26,615 bases of DNA from a virus. Below, piece by piece: positions 5,249 through 24,983 of this stretch. The stretch spans positions 1 through 26,615 of the IMG/VR virus record IMGVR_UViG_3300043448_000748; one strand, written 5' to 3'. The notes beneath the pieces were generated by a model that worked only from the letters and a program-made list of their open reading frames with translations, was not told the origin of the DNA and made no database searches. A program made the position numbers and the translations under genes. Positions within the stretch are counted from its first letter, which is position 1; the number at the start of each line of letters is the position of its first letter.

Positions 5249-7531
5249 TTATTTCCTGTTTGGTGTGGTTCCCCACGTAGAATATATCGAATTCATTCTC
5301 GTTCCACCAGATGATGTTGGAATAGGAACTGGTACGGGAACATATTGTGTAGTTGGAACAATAGTTGTCATCCCATTCATCAATCCCAAATTAGATTCTG
5401 GTGTTGGTAGTATAGCATTTCCCATCATATTTAGTCCCATAGGAGAGGGTAATGCCAATGGATTTGATGGTGGATTTAAATTCCCTAGTAAATTTCCAGA
5501 TCCAGATACTTTAGGAGCATCTGTTGTTTTTGGATCAGGTTTTGGTGTTACTTTTGTTCCACCTCCTCTAAAATAATCCTTTGCATGTGGTTCTGGATTT
5601 ATATGATTTTTTATCACACCATTCCATCCAGATCCCATTTCAAAGTGAAGATGTGGTCCTTCACTTCTTCCAGTATTTCCCAATGTACCTATAACTGGAG
5701 CATTGCCAGCAGCATCTGGTTCTAATTTTTGTCCAACACTGACATTAATAGAATTCAAGTGACCATATAGTGTAAATCTACCGTTGTTATGCTTAACTAC
5801 AACATGTTTTCCCCAACTTGTATTGCCATGATCACCAACATGATGCACAACACCTGGCATTATGACAGAAATAGGAGTTCCTATTTTAGAAAAAGGTCCT
5901 CCAGAGTAATCTACTCCATTATGCCCAGGTCTATTTGAAGTTCTAAATCTACTATAAACATAGGCATCTGGATTGACACCTCCTCTTGTTAAGTATGGAC
6001 TCGCACTTACTTCTGGAGCGTCACCATTAAATAAATTGTTTGCTCCTTGTACTAATCCATTGACTCCATTGAGTAATGCTTTAAGAGGAGCAGGTAAAAG
6101 ATTTGGTAGATCTTTAATTAGATTTTTAAATCCCTCTACAATCTGATCAATTATAGATCTACCCAGATTAAATTTAGGAGTACCCTTTATATCTGGGGCA
6201 ACTGGTACTTTAACATCAGTTTCTGGTAATTGTCTTTCTAAATTAAATTCAGGTATTGAAGATATTATTTTAGAATCAAGTCCTATCGACTCAACAAGTT
6301 TTCTAATGCCACTGAATATTGGTTTTGCCCCAGCATTTATCAATCCAATTCCAGTAGAACCACTTAAGAAATATGCAAGTTTACTTTCAGGAACAACATA
6401 CTCTGGTTCACCACCTTCACCTATAAATGCAAGTTGAGGTCCAGTTACTTTACCACCCTCTGCATATTTTTGATCTGCTCCAGTAGCAACATCAGCTACC
6501 TTTCCACCAGCAAAAGCACCTCCTGTACCACCAATTAAAGATCCAAGGATACCTCCTATAAGAGCGCCAGGAGCGGCACCAACGCCACCAAACATTGCTC
6601 CTATGGCAGCACCAGCAACAGCACCCGCCTTGCCCCCTGCAGCGGCGCCTGCAAGTCCTCCAGCAACACTTCCAGCAGTTCCGACACCAGCTTCAACATT
6701 GCTTTGTCCTTCTGATTTTCTGCCAGCAAATTCAAACCCAGCAAACAGTGCTGAAAAGATTCCCCCCTTAGGTCCAACTGGCATTTTAGGTAGTTTCACA
6801 CCTTTAGGTAAACTTGGAAGTTTAAATCCAGAAGGTTTTGGTGCGGCAGCAGGTTTAGGTCCCTTTGCCATTTGGATTGATCCACCTACAAATTTTCTAA
6901 TTTGATTTGCAGTACTTGCTATTCCCTTAATACCTTTCCATGCTTTCTTAGGAATAGATTTAGCAAATCTAGTAACTTGCCTAAATGGTCTCGTTAAATT
7001 TCTTCTAAATCTTTTTAATCCAACTTTAGTTGTTCTAACAAATCTTCTAAATTTTTTTATTCTTAATCTATTCTTTCTCCCAATAGATCTTCTAAACTTT
7101 ATAGATATTCTTCTTCTTAAATTACCAAATAAACTTTCAAATAAATCCTTTAAAAATCCTTCCGACTGTTGTTCTTCTTCCTTCTCCTGCTTTTCTTTCT
7201 TTGAAGATTCTTCTGCTTTTCTTTTCTTTGGTTCAAGATCTAACAGGTCAGAGGTTAACTGTTTTAATCTATCCTGTTCATATTCAAATATTCTTTTTGC
7301 TAAAGATAAATTAAGTAACGCTGCCTTCTTTAACTTTAAAGTTTCAGTAAACAGAGTTCCTTTTTTTATTCTTCTTTCTTTTTTTGATGGAGCGTCGGTA
7401 GTCAGTTCCTGGGTTTCACTACTAGCATCTTCATCATCTGATGGAGCAGTCATCTGAACAATAGGATTTGCGCCATACACACTAAGTATGGCGTCATTGT
7501 AATCTTGCAATCCTATTTGTTTTGCGTCCAT
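5249..7531 (-). CDS. Tape-measure-like tail protein with M23 metallopeptidase domain
   Basis: 760 residues. N-terminal part: helical and strongly charged (coiled coil near 60-125, then a very Arg/Lys-rich stretch with repeated RR and FRR). Next comes an Ala/Gly-rich hydrophobic region (GSVAGGLAGAAAGGKAG...), then KYAEGGKVTGPQLAFIGEGG, an element often seen near the C-terminal part of tail tape-measure proteins. Residues about 518-650 are an M23 (lysostaphin/LytM) peptidase: His537 and Asp541 in HNGVD, GKHVVVKH, LYGHL, and HLHF at 627-630. The zinc ligands are therefore intact. It follows gp26/gp51, the position a tape measure has after its chaperones. Likely role: sets tail length inside the tube and digests peptidoglycan at entry. 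The tape-measure call is inference; the peptidase call is strong. The start ATG overlaps the gp51 stop (TAATG). Confidence 0.8.
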   Translation of the reverse strand: MDAKQIGLQDYNDAILSVYGANPIVQMTAPSDDEDASSETQELTTDAPSKKERRIKKGTLFTETLKLKKAALLNLSLAKRIFEYEQDRLKQLTSDLLDLEPKKRKAEESSKKEKQEKEEEQQSEGFLKDLFESLFGNLRRRISIKFRRSIGRKNRLRIKKFRRFVRTTKVGLKRFRRNLTRPFRQVTRFAKSIPKKAWKGIKGIASTANQIRKFVGGSIQMAKGPKPAAAPKPSGFKLPSLPKGVKLPKMPVGPKGGIFSALFAGFEFAGRKSEGQSNVEAGVGTAGSVAGGLAGAAAGGKAGAVAGAAIGAMFGGVGAAPGALIGGILGSLIGGTGGAFAGGKVADVATGADQKYAEGGKVTGPQLAFIGEGGEPEYVVPESKLAYFLSGSTGIGLINAGAKPIFSGIRKLVESIGLDSKIISSIPEFNLERQLPETDVKVPVAPDIKGTPKFNLGRSIIDQIVEGFKNLIKDLPNLLPAPLKALLNGVNGLVQGANNLFNGDAPEVSASPYLTRGGVNPDAYVYSRFRTSNRPGHNGVDYSGGPFSKIGTPISVIMPGVVHHVGDHGNTSWGKHVVVKHNNGRFTLYGHLNSINVSVGQKLEPDAAGNAPVIGTLGNTGRSEGPHLHFEMGSGWNGVIKNHINPEPHAKDYFRGGGTKVTPKPDPKTTDAPKVSGSGNLLGNLNPPSNPLALPSPMGLNMMGNAILPTPESNLGLMNGMTTIVPTTQYVPVPVPIPTSSGGTRMNSIYSTWGTTPNRK

Positions 7532-7719
7532 TAACCTCTAGAGTTTTGTTTTTCTATTCTTGCCTTTTCCTCTTCCAAAAATTTCAAAACCATTGCAACA
7601 TATATTTCACGTTCCCAAGGTATCATATTATCTAGTTCAGTTAAACTGTATTTGTGATGCTGCATTAAACCAAAGTTAGTTCTATAATAATTCTCTAAAG
7701 AATTATGGAAGAGGGCTAT
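7531..7719 (-). CDS. 51: Baseplate hub assembly protein gp51-like, with no normal start codon
   Basis: An open frame in -1 register to gp26, ending in TAA at 7531-7533. It reads IALFHNSLENYYRTN, then LTELDNMIPWEREIYVAMV and LEEEKARIEK, a pattern I associate with the short gp51 proteins of cyanophages. Those usually start with Met-Ala-Leu-Phe; here that codon is ATA (7717-7719). The frame closes at TAA at 7729-7731, and the only ATG (7665) would remove the first 18 residues. So either ATA is used, or ribosomes enter from gp26 by a -1 shift on the slippery site at 7722-7728, or a short form is made from 7665. The coordinates give the ATA version (62 aa). Context suggests a tail-assembly chaperone acting before the tape-measure protein. 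Confidence 0.7.
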   Translation of the reverse strand: MALFHNSLENYYRTNFGLMQHHKYSLTELDNMIPWEREIYVAMVLKFLEEEKARIEKQNSRG

Positions 7720-8423
7720 GCGAAAAAATTAGACAGACCTTCAATAGTATAGTCACTCGTAACTTTTGTTGCTGGATTCTTAATCTTAATCGTATGTTTT
7801 AGTGTAGGCATCGTCTCAAAGAATTTTTGTATGTTAGAGAATTGCTTATTGTTCATGTTCTCAACAAAACTAATAAACTCATCTTCACTGGTTGTTGATT
7901 TATCCCAGACATCATCTTCATTATAAATTTTATCAATAGATCTAGCAACAAGTTTAAAAGTATTTTCTGGATTCTCAGCATCTTCAAGAAGTTCAAATGA
8001 ATCTAGATTTGGATACTTCATTTCAACCCAAAGGTCATCAGTAATTTGTATCTGATTAGTATGTCCTTCTGGAAATTGAACCTGAATATCATCGATGTTA
8101 ATTGCTACAGAAACTTCAGTTTCATTATCATCAGGACACTTCAAAAGCAATTCAATTCTTTCTCCTACAGATTTACCTCTGATGTTTAAGAACAAATATT
8201 CAATGTCAAATGTTGCTAAAGAATCAACATCGATTCCCTTTGTTTGTACACACGCAGAAATGATATCTTTCATTGCCGAAGCAATTTGAGTTTCATCTTC
8301 AGATTCTAAAGCCATCAAAAGAATCTTCTCTTCTTTAACTAGGAATGGACGATATTTAATTTTCTTTTTAGTTGAGGGAATAACCAATTCATAAGTTGGG
8401 TTATTCAAAACAGGTAATGCCAT
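7716..8423 (-). CDS. 26: Baseplate hub subunit gp26-like
   Basis: 235 residues, all soluble. N-terminus: LPVLNNPTYELVIPSTKKKIKYRPFLVKEEKILL, with the KxxKYRPFxVKEEKxLLMA pattern of T4-type gp26. It continues with MKDIISACV, then DIEYLFLNIRGKSVGE, FDIEYLFL being a conserved block. The C-terminal half is acidic (EDAENPENTFKLV, SEDEFISFVENM). In T4, gp26 is needed to assemble the baseplate hub. Here it is followed in -1 frame by gp51 and then by the tape-measure-like gene, an arrangement like the G/T chaperone pairs of other tailed phages. It sits 26 nt after the gp54-like stop. Confidence 0.8.
   Translation of the reverse strand: MALPVLNNPTYELVIPSTKKKIKYRPFLVKEEKILLMALESEDETQIASAMKDIISACVQTKGIDVDSLATFDIEYLFLNIRGKSVGERIELLLKCPDDNETEVSVAINIDDIQVQFPEGHTNQIQITDDLWVEMKYPNLDSFELLEDAENPENTFKLVARSIDKIYNEDDVWDKSTTSEDEFISFVENMNNKQFSNIQKFFETMPTLKHTIKIKNPATKVTSDYTIEGLSNFFA
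7722..7728 (-). promoter_or_regulatory. Candidate -1 ribosomal frameshift heptamer (T TTT TTC)
   Basis: Reading gp26 in frame, the last codons are AAT TTT TTC GCA TAG. The heptamer T-TTT-TTC fits the X-XXY-YYZ rule for -1 slippage exactly and lies one codon before the gp26 stop. After slipping, the next codons read CGC ATA GCC CTC, joining gp26 directly to the gp51 frame as one protein of about 295 residues. Tail chaperone pairs in many tailed phages use such a shift; for T4-like gp26/gp51 this is my inference. Confidence 0.5.
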
Positions 8424-8449
8424 AGTTATCTACAAAAAAATTACAATTA

Positions 8450-9121
8450 CTATAATCTATCTAGGTACTCAAAATAAAAGGATACTTGAATTCTTACTGG
8501 TTGGTTTGGTCCATTAGAAAATGACAAATTATTCATGCTGTATGGAAAGGCTTTATGTGCAACAACAGTATTCACTACACTATGAGTGTTTCTAGAACTT
8601 ACTTTACCATCTATATTAAAAAATTCTCTCACACCTAAATCTCTTCTGTTTGGTTCCAACTTAGATATTACAATATCTGCACAATAATTATCATAATATT
8701 GCATAGATGAATAAGATTCCTTACTATATCCAGCTGGTCCTTGTCTATTGAAAATGTAATCAGACCAATTTTGGAACACATTATAAGTTGTATGTGACAT
8801 ATCTAAAAGAAAAGTCAAACTCAATTCATTGAATACTTTAGTGTGAGCATGACGAATATTAATTCCCGTTGATAATCCCTTTACATCTCCAGTAGCAAAG
8901 CTAAATCCAGGTATATTGCATTCATCACAGAGATAACTTAACTTTGTTGCTGCTCTTCCTGCTGATGCCTCAAGTTCAAATACAGATGGATCTGAAATAT
9001 TATCTAAACCAAGAGTTGTTCCCAATCCAACTCCCATATTTGAAATAGAAACATGGTATTTATTAGATGAAGCTAGTCCGTAATTACCAACAACATTTTT
9101 TAGTATTGTATCTATTTTCAT
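8450..9121 (-). CDS. 54: Tail-tube-fold baseplate protein, gp54-like (tube initiator)
   Basis: 223 residues. The order of elements matches the tube fold shared by T4 gp19, gp54 and gp48: an N-terminal strand, AATKLSYLCDECNIPGF, then STGINIRHAHTKVFNELSLT with FLLDMSHTTYNVFQNWSDYI, and a C-terminal ARG-type segment ending RIQVSFYFEYL. The middle block resembles the strand-helix region 'vsFrmd...yramqdWvn' of gp54. In T4, gp54 sits on gp48 and starts tube polymerisation. It is first in the minus-strand tail operon, directly below a late promoter motif. It could instead be a gp19-like tube paralogue; the length and the baseplate neighbours favour gp54. Confidence 0.6.
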   Translation of the reverse strand: MKIDTILKNVVGNYGLASSNKYHVSISNMGVGLGTTLGLDNISDPSVFELEASAGRAATKLSYLCDECNIPGFSFATGDVKGLSTGINIRHAHTKVFNELSLTFLLDMSHTTYNVFQNWSDYIFNRQGPAGYSKESYSSMQYYDNYCADIVISKLEPNRRDLGVREFFNIDGKVSSRNTHSVVNTVVAHKAFPYSMNNLSFSNGPNQPVRIQVSFYFEYLDRL

Positions 9122-19705: not shown

Positions 19706-20785
19706 TCAACCGATTGCAGGTGCAGTGAGAGCAACAGGAGTTACATCAGCAGCAGCAAGGTCAAGAGGGAAGTTGTGAGCATTACGCTCATGCATTACTT
19801 CAAAACCAAGGTTAGCACGGTTCAGAATATCAGCCCAGGTGTTAATCACACGACCGTCAGAAGACAGCAGTGACTGGTTGAAGTTAAATCCATTCAGATT
19901 AAACGCCATAGTAGATACGCCAAGGGCAGCGAACCAAATACCAACCACGGGCCAAGCAGCAAGGAAGAAGTGAAGGCTACGGCTATTGTTAAAAGAAGCA
20001 TATTGGAAGATAAGACGACCAAAATAACCGTGAGCAGCGACAATATTATAAGTTTCTTCTTCTTGTCCAAACTTGTATCCATAGTTTTGAGATTCTACTT
20101 CCGTGGTTTCACGAACGAGGGAACTAGTGACCAGAGATCCATGCATAGCAGAGAAAAGAGAACCGCCGAATACACCAGCCACCCCAAGCATGTGGAAGGG
20201 GTGCATGAGGATATTATGTTCCGCCTGGAAAACAAGCATGTAGTTAAATGTACCTGAAATTCCAAGAGGCATGGCGTCAGAGAAGGAACCTTGCCCAAAG
20301 GGATATACGAGGAACACTGCAGAAGCAGCAGCCACGGGTGCGCTATAGGCAACACAAATCCAAGGACGCATACCCAGTCGGTAAGAAAGTTCCCATTCAC
20401 GACCCATGTAGGCATAGATACCAATCAGAAAGTGGAAGACGACCAGTTGAAATGGTCCACCATTATATAGCCACTCATCGAGAGAAGCAGCTTCCCAGAT
20501 GGGATAGAAGTGAAGTCCAATAGCATTGGACGAAGGAACAACAGCACCAGAGATGATGTTGTTTCCATACATGAGTGAACCAGCAACTGGTTCACGGATG
20601 CCGTCGATATCGACAGGAGGTGCGGCGATGAATGCAACGATGAAACAGATAGTAGCGGCGAGAAGGGTAGGAATCATTAAGGTTCCAAACCAACCAACGT
20701 AAAGACGATTGTTGGTAGAAGTCACCCACTCGCAGAACTGTTCCCAAGTGTTGCTTCCACGCTGTTGAGCAATGGTTGCAGTCAT
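19706..20785 (-). CDS. psbA: Photosystem II D1 protein PsbA
   Basis: 359 residues, full-length D1. Five membrane helices are present. Glu130 ([11 protein letters not shown]) is the high-light D1:2-type residue. The manganese and chlorophyll ligands are visible (DAMPLGISG with Asp170; the histidines of HNILMHPFH, and [11 protein letters not shown]), and QB-site residues lie in the [16 protein letters not shown] block. The C-terminus [22 protein letters not shown] keeps the processing site after Ala344. No intron interrupts the gene. It replaces damaged host D1 in the thylakoid during infection. Start at 20785 is the conserved MTATIAQQ; the upstream extension lies in the leader. It has overlapping early and late promoters and a leader hairpin. 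Confidence 0.98.
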
Positions 20786-20816
20786 AGTAGAAATCCGTTT
20801 GTAAAGTTTTAAGTAC

Positions 20817-20849
20817 AAGTGTTAAGAAACATTACGTTCCTTAACACTT
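20817..20849 (-). promoter_or_regulatory. psbA leader hairpin (photoRC-like position)
   Basis: Two 14-nt arms (20817-20830 and 20836-20849) pair with one G-U pair and a 5-nt loop. The predicted transcript start is near 20847, so the mRNA begins with this stem. It ends 32 nt before the ATG. PhotoRC-II RNAs, described as conserved structures ahead of phage psbA, occupy this place; whether it matches that consensus was not tested. Confidence 0.65.
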
Positions 20850-24692: not shown

Positions 24693-24763
24693 AGCGGGTG
24701 ACGGGGATCGAACCCGTGACTACAACTTGGAAGGATGGTATGTTACCGCTACACCACACCCGC
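24693..24763 (-). tRNA. tRNA-Gly (UCC)
   Basis: 71 nt; acceptor GCGGGTG/CACCCGC, discriminator U as expected for glycine, T-arm TTCGATC. Loop CTTCCAA gives UCC. The anticodon stem has two mismatches (C27-U43 and U30-U40), so folding may be weak. CCA is not encoded. Confidence 0.85.
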
Positions 24764-24983
24764 AGAAAGGGGGGCGTCACTCCCCCGTGCTAGGCTCGCC
24801 ACCAATTTTTTGACTGGAAATTGGAAACCAGGCGGAGAAAGAATTTCCCCATCCGCACCACTTGCTCTTAGGAAAAGCAAGAAACCTTATAGGGTCATAT
24901 TGACTCCACCAGTTCTGTTATAGTCCATCCGTGACTGAGGGGGTTCTCCCGACCAGGGTTTTTAACGTCTCTCCATGACGGTG
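24764..24983 (-). other. 220-bp gap with several possible hairpins; candidate structured RNA
   Basis: No convincing gene is seen. On the minus strand there are inverted repeats CTTGCT / AGCAAG, GCGGA / TCCGC with an inner GGGAAA / TTTCTC, CTGG / CCAG, and GGGGG / CCCCC next to tRNA-Gly. The stretch is richer in GC than its surroundings. It may be a long leader of the tRNA-Gly transcript, a terminator region for the 75-aa gene, or a small RNA. Confidence 0.4.

Follow-up and report, generated by a model that had tools for sequence, protein, structure and literature searches.

gp26 and gp51 of T4-like cyanophages as a probable single tail assembly chaperone gene read by −1 frameshifting

The adjacent genes gp26 and gp51 of a T4-like cyanomyovirus are very probably one gene, whose short and long products are a tail assembly chaperone (TAC) pair of the TAC-N and TAC-NC type made by programmed −1 frameshifting on a slippery run of T nucleotides. 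The phage is represented by a virus record of 26,615 bases (IMGVR_UViG_3300043448_000748, positions 1-26,615), hereafter the window, which has the character of a T4-like cyanomyovirus with its head, tail and baseplate genes, five tRNAs and a psbA-like open reading frame (ORF). Our proposal draws on the sequence of the junction and its conservation, on a −1 frame that lacks a start codon yet is under coding selection, on the order of the genes, on colinearity with T4 gp51 and on a resemblance in fold. From these we infer the slippage itself, its frequency, its stimulator and the chaperone role of the products. Most ribosomes would terminate at the TAG codon of gp26 and release a protein of 235 residues (TAC-N). 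A fraction of ribosomes, carrying two Phe tRNAs on the heptamer T_TTT_TTC, would slip one base back and produce a TAC-NC of 297 residues, in which residues 1-234 of gp26 are followed by RIALFHN and the remainder of the gp51 segment. As in the model for the G and GT proteins of lambda, the short and long forms would jointly attach to the tape measure protein and bring in tail-tube subunits before departing.

All elements of the junction are located on the minus strand. The gp26 frame (7716-8423, 0 frame, proposed TAC-N) matches PF12322 (T4_baseplate, E 1.9e-70) and, in a profile search, phrog_150 (E 2.3e-74). When the 55 aligned gp26 members were scanned against Pfam, PF12322 was found in every one of them and, beyond this domain, nothing but scattered weak matches. 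The 3′ end of gp26 reads AAT TTT TTC GCA TAG, in which the heptamer (7722-7728) is separated by three bases from the stop codon (7716-7718). This arrangement agrees with the initial annotation, which had noted a slippery heptamer at the end of gp26 and a shift from there into the gp51 frame. In the −1 frame, a TAA directly upstream of the T run is followed by TTT TTT CGC ATA GCC CTC TTC CAT, and translation past the T run gives FF-RIALFHNSLENYY... and remains open to a TAA at 7533-7531. The gp51 segment (7531-7722), the proposed C-terminal part of TAC-NC, consists of 63 codons (7722-7534) and this TAA, and matches phrog_634 (E 7.5e-29). The predicted fusion has a computed length of 234 + 63 = 297 residues, close to the estimate of about 295 made initially. 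The gp51 segment also matches the end of the phrog_150 profile (positions 231-278, E 9e-7), which suggests that phrog_150, the family of gp26, already holds in-frame long forms.

Conservation was examined in two samples of relatives, each composed of the best 80 of 596 confirmed IMG/VR loci. The first was picked by gp26 alone and, with the window added, holds 81 sequences, which form 49 representatives when clustered at 80% nucleotide identity. The second was picked by the gp51 peptide alone. One locus of the second sample, L182, has its core in common with the first sample. Distinct 120-nt cores are present in 73 of the 80 second-sample loci, and the combined count of 161 sequences includes the window and enters L182 twice.

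The slippery heptamer is kept in all relatives of both samples. It lies in the gp26 frame, with gp51 in the −1 frame, in 81/81 sequences of the first sample (T_TTT_TTC in 78 and T_TTT_TTT in 3). In the second sample, it is found exactly at the junction, again with gp51 in −1, in 80/80 loci (T_TTT_TTC in 63, T_TTT_TTT in 9 and T_TTT_TTA in 8). In every one of these, no stop interrupts the gp26 frame over at least 90 codons upstream of the junction. Over both samples, an X_XXY_YYZ heptamer of one of these three forms occurs in 161/161 sequences. A conserved ATG at 7717-7719 without a conserved heptamer, named in the initial annotation as the pattern contrary to a frameshift, was looked for among these relatives, and the opposite was found. 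The distance from the heptamer to the gp26 stop is 3 bases in 65/81, 24 bases in 11/81 and 0 bases in 5/81 sequences.

The codon that precedes TTT is AAT, AGT, GAT, TCT or GCT, with T as its third base in 81/81 sequences. It is followed by TTT in 81/81 and by TTC in none. Compared with the codon usage of each locus, the third-base T has a log10 P of −13.9 (81 sequences) or −8.5 (49 representatives); for TTT the values are −12.6 and −8.4, and all of these overstate the evidence because the sequences were treated as independent and kinship was only partly removed. A Phe-Phe pair is not the thing conserved, because the last codon of the heptamer is TTA (Leu) in the eight second-sample loci mentioned above. 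The T run is conserved at the nucleotide level while the adjacent residues vary.

In the window, the first ATG, GTG or TTG of the gp51 frame is the 20th codon past the shift, equivalent to residue 19 when numbering begins with the ATA codon at 7717-7719, as the initial annotation had stated. This ATA had been taken for the position where related proteins begin with Met-Ala-Leu-Phe-His, an expectation not borne out by the relatives, which have ATG there in 0/81 and 0/80 cases. In the first sample (n=81), the gp51-frame codon that overlaps with the stop of gp26 is ATA in 45 sequences, CTA in 16, GTA in 13, TTA in 5, and GTG and CTG in one each; ATA is found in 41/80 loci of the second. The stretch from the preceding −1-frame stop to the 8th codon past the shift is devoid of ATG, GTG and TTG in 65/81 and 56/80 sequences, and the same is true as far as the 17th codon in 54/81 and 44/80. 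Across 42 representative pairs, codons 4-18 past the shift, all upstream of the window's first ATG, have a ratio of nonsynonymous to synonymous substitution rates (dN/dS) of 0.072 in the gp51 frame, whereas the two remaining frames give 1.58 and 2.22. For codons 20-50 the gp51 frame has a value of 0.087. These ratios indicate that the gp51 frame is under strong purifying selection at the protein level before its first ATG.

The most serious alternative is that gp51 is a separate gene, translated by termination and reinitiation at a non-canonical codon (ATA in the window) that overlaps the stop of gp26, or at the ATG located 20 codons past the shift. The frequency of ATA at the junction (45/81 and 41/80) is in keeping with this view, and annotators have favored it as well. 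Among 18 named split-gene records, 13 place a separate start for gp51 at the stop of gp26 or beyond it, five have no gp51 coding sequence (CDS), and none has a joined CDS; in P-SSM2, the annotated start is an ATG shortly past the shift. Moreover, an ATG, GTG or TTG is found within 4 codons in 14/81 sequences, and phages V07 and BUCT608 have an ATG overlapping the stop. However, the junction codon is CTA, GTA or TTA in 34/81 sequences and is never ATG, and selection is no weaker upstream of the window's first ATG than downstream of it. Reinitiation also leaves the invariant T run unexplained, and we consider it highly unlikely as the source of the gp51 product.

A sequence resembling a Shine-Dalgarno (SD) element, GAAGG or GAGGG, ends about 9 nt upstream of the heptamer; in the window this is the GAAGG at 7738-7742, which ends 9 nt upstream. 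Pairing of this region with the anti-SD sequence averages −5.6 kcal/mol, versus −1.1 elsewhere in gp26. Most of this pairing is attributed to conserved residues, because synonymous resampling alone averages −4.8. The observed pairing beats synonymous resampling in 65/81 sequences (P 1e-7), in 35/49 representatives (P 9e-4) and in 56/74 loci of the second sample (P 1e-6), of which 74 of the 80 were left once L182, repeated cores and short contigs had been dropped. An excess of GGG or GGA at the Gly codon of the element in the first sample (35/49 vs 103/306) was not repeated in the second (31/72 vs 176/497, P 0.24), in which two of the 74 loci have no Gly at that position. We regard the upstream SD-like element as a candidate stimulator of frameshifting.

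RNA polymerase, rather than the ribosome, might slip on the T run and generate mRNAs that are one base longer or shorter, given that homopolymer runs can slip in transcription. Known transcriptional slippage usually requires longer runs, however, whereas in 78/81 and 71/80 sequences this run is fixed at six T, after which a different base stands, in register with X_XXY_YYZ. The SD-like element upstream also better suits a ribosome, and slippage in transcription is in our judgment barely credible. Finally, the startless frame looks broken if one genome is seen alone, but the reading of gp51 as a decaying pseudogene, or of its junction as a sequencing error, is refuted by the presence of the same junction in all 160 relatives of the two samples (one common to both) and by a dN/dS below 0.1 in the gp51 frame. 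L001 and L002, whose gp26 proteins are 100% and 89% identical to that of the window, share this junction, which makes a sequencing slip unlikely.

The proposed chaperone role is consistent with the location of the junction. On the minus strand, the genes are arranged in the order tail tube, gp26, gp51 frame and a long tape-measure-like ORF. The gene directly upstream of gp26 (8450-9121) matches the tail tube family phrog_45 (E 3.3e-32). The ORF that follows (5249-7531) encodes 760 residues of a candidate tape measure protein, and its ATG (7531-7529) overlaps the TAA of gp51 by one base. It includes an M23 peptidase domain (PF01551, E 7.3e-19), and several tape-measure PHROGs are among its weaker matches.

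The predicted fold of gp26 resembles that of a chaperone. The gp26 model has a pLDDT (predicted local distance difference test score) of 87.8. Of 793 chains aligned with it, the top four, 3fgx (Z 8.0), 2ob9 (Z 7.8), 3klu (Z 7.1) and 5ir0 (Z 5.1), cover its residues 1-96, and the fifth-ranked chain follows at Z 3.3. The 2ob9 structure is the HK97 tail assembly chaperone, of which 84 of 107 residues were aligned with the gp26 model, although a Z near 8 can stem from common arrangements and this is a resemblance only. We take 3klu to belong with the TACs as well, and 3fgx and 5ir0 are known here by fold only. For the gp26 model, Foldseek placed 2ob9 in second rank (E 0.61, probability 0.82). PDB sequences searched with a profile yielded one match, at E 0.38. 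By its modeled resemblance to the HK97 protein, gp26 appears to have a TAC-N-like fold.

The homologous proteins of T4 offer a further comparison. In T4, gp26 (208 residues, minus strand) and gp51 (249 residues, plus strand) are separate genes. In profile comparisons, the alignment of residues 14-287 of the cyanophage fusion with residues 8-251 of T4 gp51 runs through the junction (98.8%), cyanophage gp26 matches T4 gp26 (99.2%), and T4 gp26 matches T4 gp51 (99.3%). The gp51 tail of the cyanophages matches the end of T4 gp51 (95.0%) and not T4 gp26 (0.2%). The 3′ end of T4 gp26 reads GAG TTC TTT GAG TTA CTA TAA, and the heptamer is absent from 10/10 T4-type gp26 genes, which need no shift. By the profile alignments, the separate genes and the absence of the heptamer, T4 has one gene for the short form and another for the long form. 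The G/GT-type chaperone pair put forward in the initial annotation gains support from the resemblance to the HK97 chaperone, from a gene order with the tail tube upstream and a candidate tape measure downstream, and from the colinearity of T4 gp51 with the fusion. The T4-type alignments comprised 10 sequences, with L119 and L125 left out. In L125, the T4-type gp51 frame ends at 120 residues, versus 249-253 in most relatives, and this may reflect an interruption or a sequence error.

Several observations weigh against a single frameshifted gene. The fusion is a predicted protein, the 760-residue ORF is a candidate tape measure only, and Foldseek gave no match to the gp26 model at E ≤ 0.001. A possible start lies within 8 codons of the shift in 16/81 and 24/80 relatives, and gp51 may be initiated separately in these. 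In the window itself, the SD-like element pairs only weakly (−3.9). A conserved downstream stimulatory structure shared by the family was not found by RNAalifold or folding z-scores, which have limited power here. RNAalifold predicted no structure in any of four stretches from the 49 representatives, a test low in power because a column-shuffled control likewise gave zero, and single sequences folded with a z of −0.96, versus −0.68 in gp26 control stretches. The window itself can form an A/T-rich hairpin of 8 pairs 15 nt past the heptamer. RNAalifold kept this hairpin with the 5 closest relatives, lost it with 8 and gave nothing with 12, and 7 or 8 of its pairs are kept in only 4/49 representatives. 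We do not count the hairpin as evidence because it overlaps conserved codons.

The last point on this side is the absence of the T run from Ackermannviridae relatives (18/18 loci). In these loci (L099-L116), the junction reads GA(A/G) ATT TTC AT(T/C) TAA, with the gp51 tail likewise in −1 behind gp26, as it also is in L087, L088 and L096. At one and the same position, the Ackermannviridae junction carries TAATT (ATT) in 15/18 loci and TAATG (ATG) in 3/18. Translation of the tail could begin there at AUU, or the frame could be reached by a shift of a non-canonical kind.

Beyond the two samples, T_TTT_TTN is present in 9/13 named split-gene phages: P-SSM2, pf16, V07, Aeromonas 65, RHph_Y68 (with TTG), C48C1, Melnitz-2, BUCT608 and D479. 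The heptamer is also found in 5/5 further cyanophages, in 2/2 V07-like loci and in 10/10 C48C1-like loci, with two truncated loci left out. The truncated L137 and L138 were excluded from the analysis. The four non-carriers are Dickeya PP35, Salmonella Maynard, Klebsiella May and Vibrio K444. In Vibrio phage K444 (L093), a gp51-frame ATG overlaps the gp26 stop (TAATGATGG), an arrangement that would suit reinitiation.

A tentative and rather doubtful extension is that one chaperone family makes its long form in three ways, namely by slippage, by two genes of which one is an in-frame long form, as in T4, and by the unexplained event of the Ackermannviridae. In cyanophages and some further lineages, T_TTT_TTN would then be the site of slippage, and the stimulator would be an SD-like element within the gene rather than RNA structure downstream. 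If this is true, recoding would have two new variants, one driven by the SD-like element with no structure downstream and the other in the Ackermannviridae.

The strategy of short and long chaperones related by frameshifting is already known from other phages. The lambda G/GT pair similarly has a short product and a longer one made by a −1 shift where the short frame nears its 3′ end, and is located between the tail tube and tape measure genes. The window proteins differ in belonging to a family unlike that of lambda by sequence, in their smaller C-terminal part of 63 residues, and in their use of a T-run heptamer in place of the lambda one. The dnaX gene of E. coli likewise has an SD-like sequence about 10 nt upstream of its slippery heptamer, but uses an A run and a downstream hairpin, whereas no family-wide hairpin was found in the window relatives. 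Xu, Hendrix and Duda (2004) reportedly described lambda G/GT and other frameshifted TACs. The study by Vladimirov, Gautam and Davidson (2022, Virology 566:9-15) is reported to concern the tail assembly chaperones of T4-like phages. Our search of the open literature, which did not extend to this study, pointed to no paper on the cyanophage junction itself.

One source credits Vladimirov et al. 2022 with polyT −1 signals in the TAC-N genes of T4-like phages, and describes TAC frameshifts with the motif GTTTTT in Vandenendeviridae and Andersonviridae (PMC12846349). This motif differs from the heptamer described here, and the two families are other than that of the window. A second source mentions frameshifted TACs, lambda G/GT among them, and its PRFect report, after Vladimirov et al., gives an account of some T4-like phages that agrees with the two-gene form of T4 (PMC10885494). 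T4 gp26 and gp51 belong to the protein family shared by cyanophage gp26 and the fusion, but they are two complete genes on opposite strands and lack the heptamer, whereas the window would have one frameshifted gene. The T4 arrangement is unmatched by the window, whose gp51 has no start and corresponds to the C-terminal part only. In a T4 review, gp26 and gp51 are listed as hub assembly chaperones, with gp51 described as essential and of unknown function (PMC3004832).

By the frameshift proposal, two puzzling 'hub assembly' genes would become one tail assembly chaperone gene, in which gp51 is a frameshift extension of gp26. It would give an extensive group of marine phages a short recoding site that is open to direct testing, and would correct the annotation of the split gp26/gp51 records, none of which carries a joined CDS.

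A promoter and terminator scan of positions 6900-8600 and an Rfam search of the window found nothing at the junction. The latter identified a wcaG RNA motif (RF01761, 91.7 bits) at 24788-24889 on the minus strand, near a tRNA-Gly gene (24693-24763). The psbA-like ORF (photosystem II D1), recognized by eye from its translation, is located at 19706-20818 on the minus strand; psbA is a typical auxiliary gene of cyanophages.

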